Shown in pieces: positions 1 to 9,911 of a DNA stretch of 64,000 nucleotides. The stretch spans positions 434,001 through 498,000 of the forward strand of contig FMBT01000306.1 of the NCBI GenBank assembly GCA_900095095.1, written 5' to 3'. Each line of letters opens with the position of its first letter. The stretch's first letter is position 1. The notes under the pieces are model-generated. The model saw only the letters and a program-made list of their open reading frames with translations. It made no database searches and had not been told where the DNA came from. This DNA comes from Fragilariopsis cylindrus CCMP1102 (Eukaryota; Bacillariophyta; Bacillariophyceae; Bacillariales; Bacillariaceae). The position numbers and the translations under genes are program-made.

Positions 1-2
1 GG

Positions 3-2060
3 GAGGACATCAAACATGATTTCCCCCCAAATCTAAAAATTTCACCACTAGCTGCAGTACCGCACAAGTCTCGCGTCTATCGGATGATCCTAGACTTATC
101 CTTCCAGCTCCTCGTCAACGGAAAGAAGCTGGACTCAGTAAACAGTGCTTCCGACAAATCATTGGCAAAACAAGAATCAATGTACGAACTAGGGAACGTT
201 ATTCCCAGAATCATATGGGCAATGGCTCTGTCGAAAGACAAAACGACACCTTTTATGTTCTCAAAAGTAGATTTAAAGGATGGCTACTGGCGAATGGCAG
301 TCAGCGAAAAAGATGCATGGAATTTTGCATACGTCCTACCAGGAGCAGGCCCGGACGACCCGGTACAACTCGTTATCCCGGACGCCCTCCAGATGGGCTG
401 GAGCGAAAGCCCGCCTTTCTTCTGCGCCGCAACCGAAACGGCACGCGACATCATCAACGACAAGATGCGACATAACGTCATCATCGACGAGCAACCGATG
501 GAAAACATCATGATGGACATCGATTGGACCAAGATCAACAAACTTCACACTCCAATCGACTCGGAAACTGATAAACGGACGTTCCTTCAACTCATCGAGG
601 TCTACATCGACGATTTCATCGGCGTAATCCAGAGCACCAACGAAGCCGATCTACTCCAGTTTTCACGTCGCATCCTCGACGGCATCACCAAGGTATTCCC
701 GCCTCCGGAATTGTCCGGAAGCAAGATGGCACATCCGGTCTCAGAAAAGAAGCTTTTCGAGGACGGAATCTGGGACACCAGGAAAGAAATCCTAGGTTGG
801 CTCTTCGATGGAATCTCACGCACCATCGAACTGCCACAACGTAAATGCGAAGAACTCCTTACCGAACTCAAGGCGATACGCCGCAAAGACAAGATTGAAG
901 TAAAACGTTTCCAAAAACTTCATGGACGACTACAATTCGCGACCATTGCCATACCATGTGGCAAACCAATCCTGGGACAACTAAATTGTTACATGGCCGC
1001 AGCTGCCAAAAACCAGGGTCGGAAAATCGAAGTAACAAACGACTTCGCAAACATCCTCCGGGATTGGTCAGCACTCATCCGTCTAGTCGGACGACGACCA
1101 ACACATGTCTCCGAACTCATCGAACATCCACCATCTTATCAAGGCTTCGTAGATGCATCCAAATGGGGAGTCGGAGGAGTCTGGTTCAGCGGCACAACGA
1201 CCGTCGTCCCGATCGTATGGTTCTTCGAGTGGCCGCAAGAAATACGAGACCAGTTTTGCTCGTCATCCAACAGAAGCGGGCAACTCACGATATCAGATTT
1301 AGAACTAACCGGAATACTCATGCACTGGCTTGTTCTCGAGCACAGCGTGGACCCAATTACACTCCGGGGCGTCAGCGTCTCAATCTGGTGCGACAACCTC
1401 CCGGCAGTAGCGTGGATGTACAAATTCAGAACGAGCACATCATTGGTCGCAGCACGAATCCTCCGAGCCATGGCGGTACGCCTGCACACCAACAGAACAG
1501 CATTACTCTCAGTGGAACACATCTCCGGCATTTACAACAAAATGGCAGACGTTGCATCCCGCAAACATAGTCTCGACAATGCTACATTCCTCACCGACTT
1601 TTCCGCTCATTTTCCCCCACCACAGGACGAATCCTGGACTCTGTTCCTCCTCAGCAACAAAGTTACGTCAAAAGTCTCTTCGGAGCTGCTACAGAAGCAA
1701 TCGACTTTGGAGTCGTGGCGTCGACTACCAACGAAAGAATACGTTTTTGGAAAGCTTGGACCCACTACCTCGCCATTTACTTTCCTACCTATGACAAAAA
1801 ACTCAGTACACTTACTCAACAGGACAAAATCGAAGTGCTGGTCAGTTTCGCCCAACATGTGCGATCCGGAGGCGTTTCAAGACAAAAACAACAAGTTCGT
1901 GCGCAAACAGTCCAAGTATCGCTTCGGGCCATCACAGCGCGTTTCGAGATGGACGGAGAACAAAGTCCGGTGGTTAACACGCAAGGAAAATATTATAAAA
2001 AAATCGGCCAACTTATTGAGGGCTACCGACGAACCGACCCCCCTGCCAAATTCAAATTAG
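3..2060 (+). CDS. Reverse transcriptase-RNase H polyprotein of the YR retrotransposon (5' partial)
   Basis: The frame is already open at base 3, so the protein begins upstream of the window. An early RT block with the core RMILDLSF lies around 81-104. FSKVDLKDGYW follows near 260-290, and the catalytic YIDD box is at 603-614. A thumb-like region leads into RNase H, with FVDASKWGVGG near 1145-1177 and WCDNLPAVAWMYK near 1387-1425. The enzyme would copy the element RNA into DNA and degrade the RNA strand. Recognisable RNase H ends near 1570-1620. The last ~115 codons (from about 1715) overlap the recombinase in another frame and are probably not functional sequence. It could instead belong to another DIRS-order subfamily; the RT/RH identity itself is secure. 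Confidence 0.9.
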   Translation, partial: EDIKHDFPPNLKISPLAAVPHKSRVYRMILDLSFQLLVNGKKLDSVNSASDKSLAKQESMYELGNVIPRIIWAMALSKDKTTPFMFSKVDLKDGYWRMAVSEKDAWNFAYVLPGAGPDDPVQLVIPDALQMGWSESPPFFCAATETARDIINDKMRHNVIIDEQPMENIMMDIDWTKINKLHTPIDSETDKRTFLQLIEVYIDDFIGVIQSTNEADLLQFSRRILDGITKVFPPPELSGSKMAHPVSEKKLFEDGIWDTRKEILGWLFDGISRTIELPQRKCEELLTELKAIRRKDKIEVKRFQKLHGRLQFATIAIPCGKPILGQLNCYMAAAAKNQGRKIEVTNDFANILRDWSALIRLVGRRPTHVSELIEHPPSYQGFVDASKWGVGGVWFSGTTTVVPIVWFFEWPQEIRDQFCSSSNRSGQLTISDLELTGILMHWLVLEHSVDPITLRGVSVSIWCDNLPAVAWMYKFRTSTSLVAARILRAMAVRLHTNRTALLSVEHISGIYNKMADVASRKHSLDNATFLTDFSAHFPPPQDESWTLFLLSNKVTSKVSSELLQKQSTLESWRRLPTKEYVFGKLGPTTSPFTFLPMTKNSVHLLNRTKSKCWSVSPNMCDPEAFQDKNNKFVRKQSKYRFGPSQRVSRWTENKVRWLTRKENIIKKSANLLRATDEPTPLPNSN

Positions 2061-2822
2061 CAGTACCAATCAGTGTCCCAAGATACATGTATCACTACGC
2101 GTTAACAGGCACCGAAAAAACAAAAGGCAGTGGCAGATATAGCCATCATCGCTTTCTACTATCTCCTCCGAGTCGGAGAGTACACGTACACTCCGACCTC
2201 AACCAAAAAGCTAACACAAGCTTTCAGACTCCAGGACGTCACATTATGGGACAAGAATACCATCCTCGACCATAACCTCCCAATCGACGCCCTTTTAATC
2301 AGATGCACAGCAGCAACTCTTCGAATATCGAATCAGAAAAATGGCAAACGAAACCAGGCAATACACCATTTTACAACAAATACGGATACATGCCCAATAA
2401 AAGCACTAATTAGAAGAGTCAAGCACATCACTGCTCACACTTCAGTCCCGACTGCTATAATTAGCACGTATTTCGAACACCCGACTCACCAGGGCAAAGT
2501 AATGCGCGCAACCGAAATTAACTCCGCGCTCAAAGCAGCAGTACTCCAACTCGACATGAAAAAACACGGGTTTGAAGCAGCGCAAATAAGCTCACACAGC
2601 TTACGCGCCGGAGGGGCGATGGCGATGCACCTACACAACACCCCAACACACACGATTCGAAAAATGGGACGCTGGAGCAGCGACACTTTTCTCGACTACA
2701 TCCACGAACAGATCGCTGTTTTTTCAGCCGGCCTGTCAACAGCGATGGGCAAGAACATTTTCTTCCATAACATAGGCTTTCGCGCCATCCCGACCCCTAT
2801 TTTAGACAACGAAGATACTTAA
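1571..2822 (+). CDS. Tyrosine recombinase of the retrotransposon, frame-interrupted
   Basis: The N-terminal part reads in frame 2 (open from 1571; clear homology-like sequence from about 1676) and the catalytic part in frame 0 to the stop at 2822. The catalytic set is complete: first Arg in LLRVGEYT (near 2170), HxxR in SHSLRAGG (His codon 2595-2597, Arg 2604-2606), a Trp in GRWSSD and the nucleophile Tyr in LDYIHE (2697-2699). The enzyme would insert a circular cDNA by site-specific recombination. The two frames meet near 2115-2130, beside an A6-C-A4 run. No ATG opens the N-terminal part in its own frame, so it may be made as a frameshift fusion with RT-RNase H. The internal break may be a base-calling loss or a real mutation. 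Confidence 0.85.
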
Positions 2823-2867
2823 TTAATATAAAAACAAACATTTACCCTAACTAATTTGCTCACAACT

Positions 2868-2908
2868 AGTCGCGCTCAAAACCACTGAGCTACCGAATGC
2901 AGCATCCA
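2868..2908 (-). other. tRNA-like 5' half (A-box and D-arm) inside the retroelement
   Basis: On the minus strand the gap between the YR and the third ORF contains GGTAGCTCAGTGG (2882-2894), a very good tRNA A-box. A D-stem (GCTC/GAGC) and a preceding 7-nt acceptor-like segment are also present. No anticodon stem of proper form and no T-arm or B-box follows, so it is a fragment or a chance match, not a functional tRNA gene. Confidence 0.35.
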
Positions 2909-2989
2909 CAACGTTTTTGAGTTGATGCCATTCCGGTTTTACTCTCGCACATAATCTACTGTTTGAGTTCTAAATCCGTTACCAATCTC

Positions 2990-4723
2990 ATGCTGGAACA
3001 AATAGAAACAACCGTTTCAACTCTACCCACCATGCTAGATCCGTTGCAGGAACGGCAATCACCCATCACGGAGAACGCCACGACCGAAACGGCTCCAATA
3101 ACAACGAAAAACCTGAACTCACACCTGTCTCTAGGCAAACCAACAGGTTCAAAACCAACACCGGCTCACAATGCGACAATAATCACACAAACGAAGTTTG
3201 CTCAACGAACTATAATCGAAAGTTACACGGATTTAGCCTGGTACAATTCACCACAATACTCCCATAAATCGCTTTCACTAAATTACAAAAACGCAAATTG
3301 CAACAACACACTCCCTACTAAAGCAAACATGCCTCTCAACCACACCATTCCAGGCTTCGAATCCCTAGGTGATGCTTACATCGAGATCAGTGCTCTCATC
3401 AACCGCGACTTTTACACCGAAATCACCGACGCCCAAGTGTACAACGCCGACTACGAGCTTGCTAAAGCACGTCACATCCGAACTCTTCTCCGCAAAGGTA
3501 CAACCACCGAACCGGACGCAAAACGCAGCAAGAACGATTCCCTGCCACAGTCCATCATGGCCTCAATCGCCGAGGCTTTCACCAACACCCCCCACCTCAA
3601 CGTCCCCGAAATCAACACTACAGCACTTGTGTTAATGGACATGGAACTACAACGCCATCGTAAACTTGCCGAAACAATCGATCTCACAATCGACACCCAT
3701 ACGGCACCTGTTCCCACTCCGCCGGCAAACATTGCGGCCGTCATTCCACCAGCAAACATACTGGCCGTCATTCCAGTCATCCCAACGGTTCCGATCACCC
3801 CAGGTTCACCAGCGGATGCAGCGCCAGGAATCGGAGATAACACCACTGGACCAACGACTCCGGTAAACAGAACTCTTTTTGGTCCCGAAACCGCGGCAGA
3901 GGCCGAAGCCAGGGAACAGACCGAAGAGACCGAAGCCCCGGTAGATGCCGAGGCCAAAGTATTCAAACATAATTGCACACCTTCCAAGGAGAAAAACAAA
4001 CACCACGCCAACGCAATTGTCGGAGCAACGCTACGCATCCACTTTGCAACTACTATGGTCGCGGAAACGGAACGACCATTCATCCTAACCTGCAAGAATG
4101 AAGATAACCCGCGAACTGCACTACAAGCGATGTTCACAATCATGGGTGTATGTGTACCGCAGGATTGGCTCGACGGCCTCTTCACGCCTGCTCACGACTA
4201 CACAAAGGACAAAGAACCATTGTTCACGATCCTCCGGAACCACAAAGGAGAAGACTATTTCAACTTACAAGACTACATGTCCGAAGCCACCAACCACGGC
4301 CTCCCATGTGACGTACAGGGATGTTTTCTAGGAAAAAACGGCGGAAATTTTAGCAAACAGGGTTTCACCACCACCAACCCACTCCTCTGCCAAATGGAAA
4401 TCGAGGGGAATCTCGTCACGTCTAAACCCGAGAAACATTACCAATGGGTAATCTATATTCCGACCATGAACATCGTAATCACGTGCAACGACTATGTCTC
4501 AACCTCCTCAAAGGCAGACACATCACAAACCACGTGGTCACTAGGAAAAGGCACCCATTATGCATTATTGCACAAGGAATACTGCAGCATCAACAAACTC
4601 CTCGGAAAACTCATGTTCCCTGCAAAGAAGGACAACAACCGAAACCTAAAGTTGAACAGTGCAGTTTGGATTACAAACAAGCAATCCAACTTCAAATTAT
4701 TCGATGATAACGTAGAAAACTAA
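2990..4723 (+). CDS. Third ORF of the retrotransposon, function unknown
   Basis: An open frame of 577 codons from the first ATG at 2990 (the frame is open slightly further upstream) lies between the recombinase and the B1 repeat, on the same strand and with the same codon style. I recognise no domain. The N-terminal half is Thr/Pro/Asn-rich. The middle has a Pro/Ala/Val-rich linker with repeated PPANI units (about 3720-3790), followed by an acidic Glu/Ala stretch (3890-3960). The C-terminal third (from about 4000) looks globular, with several Cys, Trp and aromatic residues. Ngaro elements of animals carry an SGNH hydrolase ORF at this position, but I see no GDS-type motif here. It could be a Gag-like or accessory protein; that is inference from position only. 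Confidence 0.6.
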   Translation: MLEQIETTVSTLPTMLDPLQERQSPITENATTETAPITTKNLNSHLSLGKPTGSKPTPAHNATIITQTKFAQRTIIESYTDLAWYNSPQYSHKSLSLNYKNANCNNTLPTKANMPLNHTIPGFESLGDAYIEISALINRDFYTEITDAQVYNADYELAKARHIRTLLRKGTTTEPDAKRSKNDSLPQSIMASIAEAFTNTPHLNVPEINTTALVLMDMELQRHRKLAETIDLTIDTHTAPVPTPPANIAAVIPPANILAVIPVIPTVPITPGSPADAAPGIGDNTTGPTTPVNRTLFGPETAAEAEAREQTEETEAPVDAEAKVFKHNCTPSKEKNKHHANAIVGATLRIHFATTMVAETERPFILTCKNEDNPRTALQAMFTIMGVCVPQDWLDGLFTPAHDYTKDKEPLFTILRNHKGEDYFNLQDYMSEATNHGLPCDVQGCFLGKNGGNFSKQGFTTTNPLLCQMEIEGNLVTSKPEKHYQWVIYIPTMNIVITCNDYVSTSSKADTSQTTWSLGKGTHYALLHKEYCSINKLLGKLMFPAKKDNNRNLKLNSAVWITNKQSNFKLFDDNVEN

Positions 4724-5150
4724 CAAGTCCTACAACCTCGACCATGTCCAGAGTCGTGCTACCCCAATAGCACTCCTGACTCAACCATTCCGACATCCAT
4801 CTACACCGAGCAAATCGTAGACACCAGGATCACGCCTATACAATAACGACGTATCCAACGAACATCTTGTTAAAAGGTTCTATACCCCTAATCGAACCAA
4901 CAATTTTTAACTATACATATATAAAGAAAAGAGAATAATCAGTAGTTAACTAATAATCGTAACTTTCACCGAAGCTACAACTAGGTTGCAACACAAAATA
5001 TTTCATTCTCAACTTTCACATTAGCTACACTAATACTAGAGTCTCACTCCCGTGCACATAGCCTGGCCTAACACACCCACGCTATGACCGGAAGTCATTT
5101 CAACATTCCACACATTTATGGGACTATACCCAACTAAAGTTGGTTTGATG

Positions 5151-5418
5151 GAGGAAGCTCTTTTAGTATCTTTAATGGCTAGTGAACCCCGGAACACAAG
5201 TGGTCCGGAATACACAATCCACCAAAAATAGGTCACATCAGTTCAGTCCCGAGTTAGCCACGACTGACAACAATCAACCTCTTTTGACGAAACTATATAC
5301 ACTTAGATAGATCCAGAAAAACGTGTTCAACAAAACCGAGGTAAGCCAGAAGAATGATTCACATAATTACTTTAGTCGCATAGCAACTCCGGCTAAATTT
5401 AGTGCAACTAAATTTAGT
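5151..5418 (+). repeat. Direct repeat B1 of the split-repeat terminus
   Basis: It is a 268-bp copy that appears identical to 5618-5885 by eye (constant offset of 467 bases at both ends). It ends in the 12-bp palindrome ACTAAATTTAGT (5407-5418). It begins inside the non-coding tail after the third ORF. Confidence 0.9.
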
Positions 5419-5617
5419 CAAGGAGTGTTAAAGCTGTAAAAAGGAATCAAGCGATTTATTTTTATACAACGCGCGCGCTAGTAGAAAAATCAAAGTCCAG
5501 AAGAGAAATCTATTCTGGACTCATTCTTTTGGAAACATCGTGTTTTGTTGTGAGGCAGCTCCGGAGCTGACGTGACCGCTGAAAGCGCTTCTTCTTCCAC
5601 AACCATCCTCACTCCTA
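5419..5617 (+). repeat. A2 segment between the two B repeats
   Basis: It is a 199-bp spacer. In a split-direct-repeat element it should match the A1 terminus at the unseen left end. It holds a perfect 9-bp stem, AGTCCAGAA (5494-5502) with TTCTGGACT (5513-5521), around a 10-nt loop, and a CG-rich GCGCGCGC run at 5471-5478. Confidence 0.7.
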
Positions 5618-5885
5618 GAGGAAGCTCTTTTAGTATCTTTAATGGCTAGTGAACCCCGGAACACAAGTGGTCCGGAATACACAATCCACCAAAAATAGGT
5701 CACATCAGTTCAGTCCCGAGTTAGCCACGACTGACAACAATCAACCTCTTTTGACGAAACTATATACACTTAGATAGATCCAGAAAAACGTGTTCAACAA
5801 AACCGAGGTAAGCCAGAAGAATGATTCACATAATTACTTTAGTCGCATAGCAACTCCGGCTAAATTTAGTGCAACTAAATTTAGT
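5618..5885 (+). repeat. Direct repeat B2, right terminus of the retrotransposon
   Basis: This is the second copy of the 268-bp repeat at 5151-5418, again ending in ACTAAATTTAGT (5874-5885). Sequence after 5885 does not continue the match, so this is the probable right boundary of the element. Confidence 0.85.
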
Positions 5886-6219
5886 GAAAAATAGCGTACT
5901 GGCTCGACTCACTCGACTCAATCATGAAAAACAGCTTTTTCTTTCTTAAAAAATCTCAATCCAATCATGTCGGTGGTCTCATTATATATTATGAAGTAGG
6001 TCCTACATTGTTCTTCCTTTGCTTTCCATAGAACACAACCACCAATCAAGCGCTAGCTAGTATGCATCGGTCAACTGGATCCTAAATCCAGTCTTTGTAG
6101 CCAGACACATTCCTTTTTTTAAAATCTACATTGTGCCTCTTCCATAATACACTATTGAAATAATACAAAAAAAAAAGCTAACATACATAATAATGATATA
6201 TATATATATGAATTAAACT
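5886..6219. other. Intergenic stretch right of the retroelement
   Basis: It is AT-rich DNA with short A, T and AT runs (for example 6197-6208) next to the 3' end of the aminotransferase gene. I see no gene or clear regulatory site. Confidence 0.6.
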
Positions 6220-7593
6220 TTATATAATTTTAACACTATTCCGCATCATGTCTTCTTCAACTAAGGATTTGATTCGTAAAATTATCGGTGATATAGTTTG
6301 GAAATTATACGTCGTTATTGTTGTTTCTTCTTCAGAAGGACATGTGGTAGTGACAGGGTGACAATAACGGGAAGGTATTATAATTTGATGAATCGGAAGA
6401 ACTAATCGTGATGTACTTGTAAGGAATGCACCTTGAATGAATCGGCGATCCTGCTGCTGCTGCTGATCATCATCCTTATCATCATCGCCATCGTCGTCGT
6501 CGTCATTATTTAATAGTAAGGTGTTTAATTTTACTGGTTGAAATTTTACTGGTATGCTATTCATTTTACAACAAGTCAAAACTGATGCTCGTGCGGTCCC
6601 TTTTAATACATCGTGATCTGCCGTTAAGACATTACCATCAATATCAACAGCAAAAAAGTTTGTTTCTGTTCCTTCAAGTAATGTTGGATTATCTTTATTA
6701 TTATCAATATCATTATCATTATCTTTATTACCATTGTCCAACAATATGATATCTTCAATCTTCTGATCGTCTTCTTGTACAATATTAGTACTGCATAATC
6801 CATCTTCGACATGATGATTCATGGCAATATGATTCATTTGCTGACGAAATAATTCCTTTCGTTGTTTCACCCAGTTCGCATCTTTAATCGTTGAATTAGC
6901 TCGCTTTGCTCCTCCGATCAAAACAGTTATTGTTCTATTATTATTTCCACTGCTGGTGGTAACAGTGCTAGCAGTTGTTGGTAACAATCCTACATAACAG
7001 TACAAATCTAATGACCGCCGTATTGATGCTGTTGTTACTGCTGTTGCTGTTTTATTAGCATTGACATTGACATTGACATTGACCACAAAAACAGCTAGAG
7101 TTAGTTTCAATTCATGATCTCTCTCTCTCAATTGATTCCCAAATTTCGTCGAGAAAGTTTTCATCGCAAGGGCGCAATTAGGTTTGATCATATCATGTAA
7201 TTGATCAAGCAGTTCTTTTATTTCCATTGTTGTTTCCTCCTGTTCTTTTTGTTCTTGTTCTTTTCCAAAAGAAGTCACGAGCACTGCTCTAGTCGAATCA
7301 ATCAATCGTTTAACATGCAATTCATATTGGAAAATATTTTTCCGTTCACATGTTGTTCGAGCACAAGTATATGCACATTTATAATCATGCCGTGCTTGTT
7401 TTTGTTTTTCTCCATTATCATTGTTATGACTTAGGTTGTAAAAACCATCAATTAAAGTATCCATAGACGGTTTCTCTTGAGAACATTTTGTAGTGACTGT
7501 GACGACATTACTATCCTTTACAAGTACACTGTAATAGCATTCATCTTGTTGTTGTTGTCTTGGAAGAGGAAGAGATGATTCAGATGGCACCAT
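6220..7593 (-). CDS. Class-IV PLP aminotransferase-like protein (D-amino acid aminotransferase / ADC-lyase fold)
   Basis: It is a single-exon frame of 457 codons with an ATG start. The C-terminal two thirds match the class-IV aminotransferase pattern. TIKDANWVKQR (near residue 233) supplies the likely PLP lysine. LLEGTETNFFAVD with the following VLKGTARASVL is the signature block where the cofactor phosphate is held. GAFLTSTSRLVLPI is the late active-site loop. Family members transfer amino groups or cleave aminodeoxychorismate; the exact substrate cannot be read from this sequence. Asp- and Gln-rich insertions (near 6455-6515 and 6690-6740) make it longer than the usual ~300 residues. No targeting peptide is obvious. 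The frame is intact. Confidence 0.75.
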   Translation of the reverse strand: MVPSESSLPLPRQQQQDECYYSVLVKDSNVVTVTTKCSQEKPSMDTLIDGFYNLSHNNDNGEKQKQARHDYKCAYTCARTTCERKNIFQYELHVKRLIDSTRAVLVTSFGKEQEQKEQEETTMEIKELLDQLHDMIKPNCALAMKTFSTKFGNQLRERDHELKLTLAVFVVNVNVNVNANKTATAVTTASIRRSLDLYCYVGLLPTTASTVTTSSGNNNRTITVLIGGAKRANSTIKDANWVKQRKELFRQQMNHIAMNHHVEDGLCSTNIVQEDDQKIEDIILLDNGNKDNDNDIDNNKDNPTLLEGTETNFFAVDIDGNVLTADHDVLKGTARASVLTCCKMNSIPVKFQPVKLNTLLLNNDDDDDGDDDKDDDQQQQQDRRFIQGAFLTSTSRLVLPIHQIIIPSRYCHPVTTTCPSEEETTITTYNFQTISPIILRIKSLVEEDMMRNSVKII

Positions 7594-7804
7594 TTTGATT
7601 ATTTCGTATTTCGTATCAATTTTTATCTACAACGAACGTCGTCGAATATTATTTTAATAGACAAGTGAATAAAGAAATAAGATATAATAACACCAGCGAG
7701 CGCTAATTTAATAAAGGAAAGATAAAACATAAAATGAGAACACTGGAGTAGAAGTGTAACACTGAAATGAGAAGTGTGAATGTATCACTGACATTATTTC
7801 CTCT

Positions 7805-7990
7805 GGGCAGCGCTAATTTACTATAGAGTTTTGCGCCTTAAATTTGACGTTACAAAGGACGAAGATTGAGTGAATTCAAGTGAACGCTTTCAATTTTAAT
7901 TTAATTTTTAGTTCTTTCCCTCAAAAAACTTGCTTTGTAGTGTGCAATTTAAGCCGCAAAACTCCGAAGTAAATTAGCACTCGCTGGAGG
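7805..7990. repeat. Imperfect inverted repeat (fold-back / MITE-like)
   Basis: The left arm near 7805-7850 and the reverse complement of 7938-7988 share CTAATTTACT, GAGTTTTGCG and CTTAAATT in the same order and spacing, around a ~90-bp centre. A further partial copy of the arm end (AGCGAGCGCTAATTTA) sits at 7694-7712 in direct orientation. Confidence 0.55.
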
Positions 7991-8099
7991 AAGTAACAAA
8001 TTTTACAAAGAACAAAAGCAAAGTTCATAATCGTAGAATAACAAAGCGCGCGTATTTTCATTCCTCAAGACTACTTTCCTCCCGTACAACCACAGCTTG

Positions 8100-8190
8100 G
8101 AGGTTTGGTCACATAGTGGGTGGTTTAATCGGCATTGAGCTTAGAGGTTTGGTCTCAGTGGGTGATTCAACCGGCATTGAGCTTGAAGGT
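8100..8190. repeat. Short tandem repeat, unit about 43 bp
   Basis: Two near-identical units share GAGGTTTGGTC and CGGCATTGAGCTT, followed by the diverged start of a third. On the minus strand they would encode repeats with the core SSMPxxxP. Confidence 0.6.
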
Positions 8191-8939
8191 TCGGTTACAG
8201 AAGGACTGGATTTTGGTAAAGCAAGGAGGATTAAAGTTGATTCATTGCCGATCTTTGAGCAGCTTATCATCCATGGCAATTTTTTTAATGTCGCCACCTT
8301 CAATCCAGCTAACTGTTCCCTCGAATAGTACTTGACCAGACAAAAATCTCCACGGCTGAAAGCATACACTTTTATCTTGTCAAAGGTTGCTGCTCTACCT
8401 AATCTACTGATAGTGGAGTGTATTGTATTCTAGGAATGACTAAATCATGATTGTATCTTTGTTTCTGCTACTTCTAATCAAACGACCTGTCCTCAGACGC
8501 AATTTCTTAGTTGCACCCCAGAAGTATACCACAACTTCGTATATGTTCCTTCCTACAGAGCAGATAAGTTGTATAGATGATCGCTTCGTCACTGTTCACA
8601 TTGGAATAATGCTTCTGGTATATTGATAGAGGGTGCCCATGTAATACTTCCAGCATTGCATAAGATTGGGTAACGATATGCTATCGATGAGGACAAGACA
8701 ATATTTGAGAGAAGAACGACGAATAGCTTTGTAGAAAAATGGCGAAGATGTTATGACGCTCTCTATTATGTTTACCATTGGAGTCAGTGCGATTTAAAAA
8801 CTTGATGTGATAAATTAGTCTATATTTTAGTGACTATTATAGAAGCGTAGTAACTACTGAGAACCCGAAATCAGAACCCATATTTGTCAGCAATCAACAG
8901 AGGCCCCGAATATCGATTAACTAGTTCTTTTCTACTTAG

Positions 8940-9911
8940 TTAACTCAAACAACGATCGATTCCCTCCGTCATCGTGAAGGGGATGATATCCATCATGCGC
9001 TTAGTGCTTTCCAATTCCAAGTAAGATTCAGAAAAGATCTTTCGAAGGTACGGACGGACATCAACTAGCTGGTCCAAGTTTTGCAACGTGAGCTTTACTA
9101 TCTGAAGATGTTTATCATCGGGATCTCCATGCCAACTCAGAATCGGAATCCCGTTGTCATGATTCAACAAGAAATTGTTCAGACGGTCGTCGATATGGAC
9201 GATCCTTCCTAGGTCGTCGCGTCCGGCCCATTTAGCGACTTTTGCAAGCGGTTTTACGTAGATCCTACCAAATACGTAATCGAATACGATTGTTTCACAG
9301 TCTCTCCGGTACCATCGTTTTGCAAAGGCATTTGAATCGCCGACCAACATGCATAACCGATCAATGATTGGATCAGCGTAACGCTTACTCCCCGCCGTGA
9401 AGATATGCGTCTCATACCGTGCAGTGGCGAACACCAAAAAGTCTACTAGCCCAGGGCGGAGCATCACCTCTAATTCAAATGTCGACTGCGCATGTTTAGT
9501 TGGATCCAAGCTACCGCCATCATTATCTTCCTTAGGACAACTTGGTTGTCTTGTTACTAATTCTTTGGAATGAATTAAACAATCGTCCAAGTCCAACACG
9601 ACGATCAGATCGGATGGGTAAGATTTCGTTACTTTCTTCCTCAACTCGATACAAAAGTCTTCCTCGATGATAATAGTTGGCGTATAATCGCAACTGTCCT
9701 CACCACTAGAACTGTGACATCGCTTGCTGATTCCGATGCTGTTGCTGTTGCTGTTGTTGCTATTATTCTTGATGTTTTCTTCGGATGTTACGTCAGTTAC
9801 TTCAATATGATGGGCATTAATACTTACTGTTACCGTCTTTAGCGCAATTTCTTCTGATTTCGAGTTCGAATCGGCATTCATCGTTCGTGTCATCGCGCTG
9901 GTGGGGATCAT
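8940..9911 (-). CDS. FCP1/SCP-like (NIF-family) HAD phosphatase
   Basis: It is a single exon of 323 codons from ATG 9911. The FCP1-homology domain starts with VVLDLDDCLIHS (the DxDx nucleophile motif, with Cys where Thr or Val is usual). MLRPGLVDFLVFATARYETHIFTAG, written here only as a pattern (LRPG...YET..FTAG), is motif II. YVKPLAKV and VHIDDRL (Asp pair) are the late motifs. Such enzymes dephosphorylate Ser, for example on the RNA polymerase II C-terminal domain, or act on other phosphoproteins. The ~90-residue N-terminus is Ser/Asn-rich and probably disordered. The length suits a small CTD phosphatase-like protein without a BRCT domain. The substrate is unknown. Confidence 0.85.
   Translation of the reverse strand: MIPTSAMTRTMNADSNSKSEEIALKTVTVSINAHHIEVTDVTSEENIKNNSNNSNSNSIGISKRCHSSSGEDSCDYTPTIIIEEDFCIELRKKVTKSYPSDLIVVLDLDDCLIHSKELVTRQPSCPKEDNDGGSLDPTKHAQSTFELEVMLRPGLVDFLVFATARYETHIFTAGSKRYADPIIDRLCMLVGDSNAFAKRWYRRDCETIVFDYVFGRIYVKPLAKVAKWAGRDDLGRIVHIDDRLNNFLLNHDNGIPILSWHGDPDDKHLQIVKLTLQNLDQLVDVRPYLRKIFSESYLELESTKRMMDIIPFTMTEGIDRCLS

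Follow-up and report, generated by a model that had tools for sequence, protein, structure and literature searches.

A probable Ngaro-like tyrosine-recombinase retrotransposon, very likely of a diatom, with a fourth open reading frame in two versions

Introduction

Ngaro elements are tyrosine-recombinase (YR) retrotransposons with split direct repeats and with gag, reverse transcriptase/RNase H (RT/RH) and YR genes in this order on one strand, and they are described as lacking a methyltransferase (PMC4157794, PMC9210276, PMC3783388). In this study we analysed an element at the left end of a 64,000-nucleotide stretch of a eukaryotic genome (G000:C81:434001-498000, hereafter the window; C81, C324 and similar names are contig labels). 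Its layout, its gene order and the absence of a detectable methyltransferase match these descriptions, and we therefore regard it with considerable confidence as a Ngaro-like element, that is, a retrotransposon that has split direct repeats and inserts through a tyrosine recombinase; its host is very likely a diatom. A fourth open reading frame (ORF4) occurs in two versions within one backbone.

Among stramenopiles, Ngaro elements have been recorded in Ectocarpus (15 families) and in Cafeteria (PMC8547959). Those of Cafeteria burkhardae share with the present element the A1-[ORFs]-B1A2B2 layout, the order of gag-like ORF, RT/RH and YR and the occurrence of solo AB repeats, and the word methyltransferase is absent from that paper; by description they are about 6-7 kb long with three ORFs, whereas the present element spans 10.2-10.35 kb and has a fourth ORF in two versions. 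Amphibian Ngaro-like elements also have four ORFs, the fourth after the YR, together with split direct repeats and no methyltransferase, but there the fourth ORF is reported to be an SGNH hydrolase whereas ORF4 here has no Pfam family (PMC9210276). PAT-like elements have split direct repeats as well, but are described as encoding a methyltransferase, which was not found here (PMC4157794). The split direct repeats of VIPER/TATE are reported as 100% identical in some copies, although these elements, compared by description, are from kinetoplastids (PMC6681497). A tyrosine recombinase element recorded in a diatom is CryptonS of Phaeodactylum and oomycetes, but it is presented as a DNA transposon without reverse transcriptase (PMC3212892). 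In the open-access literature searched, most subscription papers lying outside its scope, we found neither a Ngaro element described from a diatom nor a report that such an element had exchanged an ORF. As far as this search extends, the diatom family, an ORF4 without a known domain and its exchange as a cassette appear to be new.

Results

Repeats and ends of the element

Along one strand the element reads A1-gag-RT/RH-YR-ORF4-B1-A2-B2, and the window holds the right 5.9 kb of 10.2 kb, the left part being upstream on the same contig (Table 1). A preliminary description, made from the window alone, had reported two apparently identical 268-bp repeats (B1 and B2) placed 199 bp apart; they are indeed identical, the extended pair measuring 271 nt with one mismatch, and the T at 5418 can be assigned to either B1 or A2. 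The same description had taken the whole intervening 199 bp for a repeat of the left terminus and had named beforehand, as a check, a leftward search for that copy. This decisive test was passed: the copy (A1) was found unchanged 4.3 kb left of the window, so that the proposal stood for the first 179 nt of A2, but not for the 21 nt before B2, which do not occur in A1.

The genome searched is an assembly of 67.9 Mb in 818 contigs. With window positions 5151-5885 as query, the B1-A2-B2 block was found at 13 places; 40 of the 41 candidates were scored, and these counts are lower bounds. At 11 of the 13 places an A1 copy lies 10.2-10.35 kb to the left, and at the other two (C282 and C562) the contig ends before the position of A1 is reached. 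Ten of the 11 A1-bearing copies were taken whole and aligned, C299 being covered only in its right part and left end. The backbones of the whole copies differ by 0.19-0.98% (median 0.51%, 45 pairs, gaps ignored), and the element is recently active.

All ten whole copies begin with TCAAGG, and nine of them end with CTAAATTTAG followed by a variable base, C298 stopping 8 bp short. The element termini are thus TCAAGG...TTTAG, and both are carried, already joined, at the border of B1 and A2. At four variable sites in B, B1 equals B2 in all ten aligned copies, and in A the only variant common to two repeats, the extra A of C340, occurs in A1 as well as in A2; private differences amount to one in B (B1 of C471) and three in A (A1 of C340, A2 of C471 and A2 of C260). 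The published reverse-transcription model demands that the repeats be nearly identical at insertion (PMC6681497).

The 10-bp palindrome CTAAATTTAG occurs twice at the end of B, 15 bp apart and reaching the crossover point (window 5393-5417 and 5860-5884); the pair is a candidate YR binding site. A more divergent copy (L051, C156:28300-34000) has a single B at its end and lacks A2-B2, the state expected after recombination between B1 and B2.

Table 1. Positions of the element and its parts in the window
Feature	Position	Strand	Remarks
Right part of the element	1..5885	+	Whole copy G000:C81:429684-439885, 10,202 bp; left 4,317 bp outside the window
RT and RNase H frame	3..2060	+	Single open frame; YIDD and DASKWG by eye; weak RVT_1
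Tyrosine recombinase frame	1571..2822	+	Overlaps the end of the RT frame; one-base frameshift near 2113
Cassette in two versions	2900..4742	+	Edges of the divergent stretch approximate
ORF4, version I	2990..4723	+	577 aa from ATG, no known domain
Repeat B1	5151..5418	+	Identical to B2
B1/A2 junction	5408..5423	+	CTAAATTTAG-T-CAAGG, right end joined to left end
Repeat A2	5418..5596	+	179 nt identical to A1 at C81:429684-429862
Stretch between A2 and B2	5597..5617	+	Absent from A1
Repeat B2 and right element end	5618..5885	+	TTTAG occupies 5880-5884; the T at 5885 is possibly a target base

Integration sites

Eleven joined-flank blocks were compared with the genome and 40 of 100 candidate empty sites were scored. 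An occupied/empty comparison was obtained for three of the 11 insertions, and none of them has a target duplication, as the preliminary description had expected. One comparison is clean and exact: a solo A-B of 470 bp at C90 against the empty site in C174 (98%, 280/280 bases), with AAAATC on the left and TCAATTTT on the right of the junction. The comparison of C349 with C182 (83%, GATACAG on the left and TTG on the right) is less clean, and the empty site of C398 in C405 (85%) has 29 extra bases nearby. The base to the right of the crossover at 11 two-sided sites is T in seven, C in three and A in one, and T is also the first base at the right ends in C282, C299 and C156. This count leaves out C298, with its shortened right end, and C562, whose right flank is that of C166, while from C299 only the right end was used, because on the left it has the flank of C398. 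Solo A-B remnants, present at C90 and C103, correspond to the isolated AB repeats described among the Ngaro elements of Cafeteria (PMC8547959).

Gag, RT/RH and YR genes

The RT-RNase H assignment of the preliminary description was borne out by the motifs YIDD (603-614) and DASKWG (1152-1169). In C324 the RT is a separate frame of 836 codons; the window copy lacks about 133 bp by comparison, and this deletion fuses gag and RT in frame (1760 codons). The full R/HxxR/W/Y set claimed for the YR is present in the 416-codon frame of C324 (R200, H342, R345, W368 and Y376, mapping to about 2169, 2595, 2604, 2673 and 2697 of the window), but the window copy itself has a broken frame (1571-2128 and 2112-2822), with six A in the run near 2113 against five A in the other nine whole copies. 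The frame is open at 416 codons in six of the ten. The YR has a Cre-like N-terminal domain and combines the R...HxxR...W/H...Y residues with the Cre/lambda-Int fold that define tyrosine recombinases; apart from a few helical proteins, the matches listed in the fold search all have the recombinase fold, and the Phage_integrase match (E 0.0012) is below the Pfam cut-off. Gag was assigned by its position and by a CX8CX3CX3H motif in eight of ten copies.

Among intact frames of gag (four copies), RT (three) and YR (six) dS is 0-0.043. The dN/dS of YR is 0.02-0.15 where defined and non-zero, and the gag of C209 stands out with 0.40-0.65. PDB sequence searches with RT and YR returned nothing meaningful, and IMG/VR scans with RT, ORF4 and two alignments returned no relative.

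Two versions of ORF4 in one backbone

The fourth ORF had been missed in the preliminary description. Its two versions are about 43% identical, version I occurring in seven of the 13 copies (C324, C81, C166, C282, C562, C340 and C471; 96-100% to the ORF4 of C324 by longest piece, with broken middle pieces scoring 81-89% in three of them) and version II in six (C298, C260, C398, C209, C299 and C349; only 39-45% to the ORF4 of C324). When the ten whole copies are compared in windows of 200 columns, nearly every window outside the ORF4 segment shows 97-100% identity, except at a deletion in C81 and in some windows that reach 91-96%; inside the segment, copies of different classes are 39-66% alike, with gaps scored as differences. 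The borders of the segment are sharp (near 7345 and 9195 of C324), and 655 of the 698 two-state informative sites are located in this cassette and 43 outside. Between the versions (3 x 4 copies, 12 pairs) dS is 1.43-1.53, dN 0.50-0.52 and dN/dS 0.33-0.35, while few changes were found within one version.

None of six aligned relatives of ORF4 has a Pfam match, and an SGNH hydrolase, the known extra ORF of Ngaro elements, was rejected on this ground. An ORF4 profile gave two PDB rows (E 0.35 and 1.1), and a PHROGs search gave only chance-level rows. We infer that ORF4 encodes an accessory protein. Our best guess is that this protein is directed at the host, either at silencing or at the chromatin of the target, rather than at the copying machinery, because gag, RT and YR are uniform and only ORF4 has diverged.

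A further copy, C156, combines an RT-YR part that is 90.3-90.7% identical to all ten whole copies with an ORF4 that is 96.5-96.9% identical to five version II copies and 60% to five version I copies. Its identity changes stepwise between about 7100 and 7540 of C324, which is the same YR/ORF4 border. C156 is probably an older copy because it is more divergent, and its composition shows what reads as a second exchange at the same border.

Related YR families

A second family (L054 at C81:413500-421500, and others) has RT 57-59% and YR 49-50% identical to the element described here. L054 lies about 8 kb to the left of it and contains gag, RT, YR and an ORF4 of its own, and ten or more contigs have matches to the YR of this family; L054 also has an identical 600-bp direct repeat whose copies are 796 bp apart and run to the edge of the stretch examined. 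The ORF4 of family 2 is placed after the YR, and 119 of its residues are related to ORF4 here (22%, E 2.6e-4 in a two-protein comparison). Since family 2 has its own related gene, ORF4 is an old component of the clade, and its segment appears to move from one backbone to another. An exchange of ORF4 in family 2 was suspected for C648 and rejected, since C648 proved to be a copy of family 2 at 98% identity in which RT-YR is interrupted by many one-base gaps. Two more distant families of YR retrotransposons were found at C88:320500-328500 (L059) and C184:662500-665500 (L060); in both the YR overlaps the RT/RH frame, and a gag-like frame in C88 has CX8CX3CX5H near its end.

Host and assembly

The silicon-transporter family is typical of diatoms, and a few other protists have silicon transporters as well. 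Because 27 matches to PF03842 were found in the genome, all above the Pfam cut-off (some of them fragments, several with long open frames), the host is very likely a diatom by its gene content, in agreement with the diatom-like genome proposed earlier. Pairs with nearly equal scores among these matches suggest that both haplotypes are partly retained in the assembly.

At L061 (C648:473900-478500) the RT-YR part has a one-base gap roughly once in 50 bases and the ORF4 part has few such gaps, probably marking an unpolished stretch of the assembly, and frameshifts of single copies therefore need cautious reading. One left flank is common to C260, C298, C505, C553 and C156 (99-100% over 1.5 kb); the junction of C156 is about 2 bp off within it, and on the right neither C156 nor C298 has the flank of C260. 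This sharing may reflect haplotigs, a repeated target or mis-joins.

Discussion

Taken together with the published model for such elements, the genomic observations suggest the following cycle. An RNA copy of the element would be reverse transcribed, and the B1-A2 segment, in which the ends are already joined, would serve as the template that restores the ends and closes a circle. Through a YR-mediated crossover between TTTAG and TCAAGG, the circle would then enter a target in which the first base on the right is mostly a pyrimidine. In addition, the ORF4 segment would have been swapped between related lineages, most simply by template switching of the RT between two element RNAs, the YR/ORF4 border having been used at least twice.

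ORF4 thus appears to behave as a cassette exchanged between element lineages, and template switching is the simplest route, with gene conversion or a long-kept polymorphism as alternatives. In the last case the two versions would go back to an old polymorphism that several element lineages have retained, through selection or by chance, and not to a recent exchange, with the backbones homogenised later by gene conversion or recombination. In keeping with it, the relic C354 resembles version I somewhat more than version II (423 against 344 tblastn bits in sum) and its repeats are about equally far from both versions (76-84% and 77-86%). Signs of backbone recombination are also widespread, four-gamete conflicts being present in 143 of 946 marker pairs (Rm 9) with five involving the ORF4 version, although assembly errors may add to them. 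C156, on the other hand, joins an RT-YR that is 10% different to an ORF4 that is only 3% different, and an exchange of ORF4 itself or of the adjoining backbone is therefore needed. We consider the old polymorphism possible, at clearly less than an even chance.

As to the class of the element, it has the split direct repeats, the gag, RT/RH and YR order on one strand, the insertion without target duplication (at the three sites compared) and the lack of Dam that characterise Ngaro. A PAT-like element of the DIRS group that had lost its methyltransferase, and thus looks like Ngaro, would have the same repeat layout, and such a loss has been inferred in a PAT lineage of Caenorhabditis briggsae (PMC4157794). 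The methyltransferase domain of PAT elements was found neither by Pfam scans of the four ORF products nor in the related families read here, and a genome search with PF05869 gave 0 matches while detecting the E. coli positive control. This evidence is indirect. We regard a PAT origin as quite improbable, and the placement on the Ngaro side made in the preliminary description is supported. Inverted ends of the DIRS1 type were rejected as A and B match the ten whole copies in direct orientation only, and positions 1-9000 of the window contain no inverted repeat pair of at least 20 nt. A long terminal repeat (LTR) retrotransposon with a DDE integrase, features which had been named among the observations that would overturn the Ngaro assignment, was rejected by the repeat layout, the YR residues and the absence of any integrase-core (rve) Pfam row at E up to 5.

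That the two ORF4 versions are an assembly artefact, a chimeric joining of two element families, is very hard to believe in spite of the 818 contigs, the copies with only one common flank and the indel-rich stretch, for four reasons. On either side of the cassette the ten whole copies show 97-100% identity in nearly all windows, each version forms an open frame in several copies, and the 13 contigs split into two classes. A mis-join, moreover, would hardly put so divergent a coding segment between the same two borders of a backbone with 99% identity.

Several points weigh against our interpretation as a whole. The steps of circle formation and insertion are derived from sequence facts and the published model, and the supported term Ngaro-like refers to structure. 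The Pfam matches of the element proteins are below the curated cut-offs, and for eight of the 11 insertions no empty site was found among the candidates scored. Within one ORF4 version dN/dS is 0.09-1.05, so that present constraint on ORF4 is not proven, and the AlphaFold model of ORF4 is unusable (pLDDT 26.7). Finally, since the assembly has the gap-rich stretch of C648 and some copies have one flank in common but not the other, errors of assembly may account for the single frameshifts and for some of the mosaic pattern in the backbone.

Little is understood of tyrosine-recombinase retrotransposons, and the model of their copying is drawn from few elements. In the family described here, about a dozen copies are nearly identical and recently inserted, their repeats change together, the junctions are exact and some empty sites are available, and the joined-ends model is therefore directly testable. 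With two ORF4 versions in one backbone, nature has made a swap experiment on a gene that can follow the YR in elements of this kind. It is a tentative and rather doubtful proposal that ORF4 is a host-facing accessory gene, acting for instance against silencing, of which two deeply separated versions coexist and are passed between lineages as a cassette; if it were true, the ORF4 cassette would be the retrotransposon counterpart of the swappable surface and antagonist genes of viruses.

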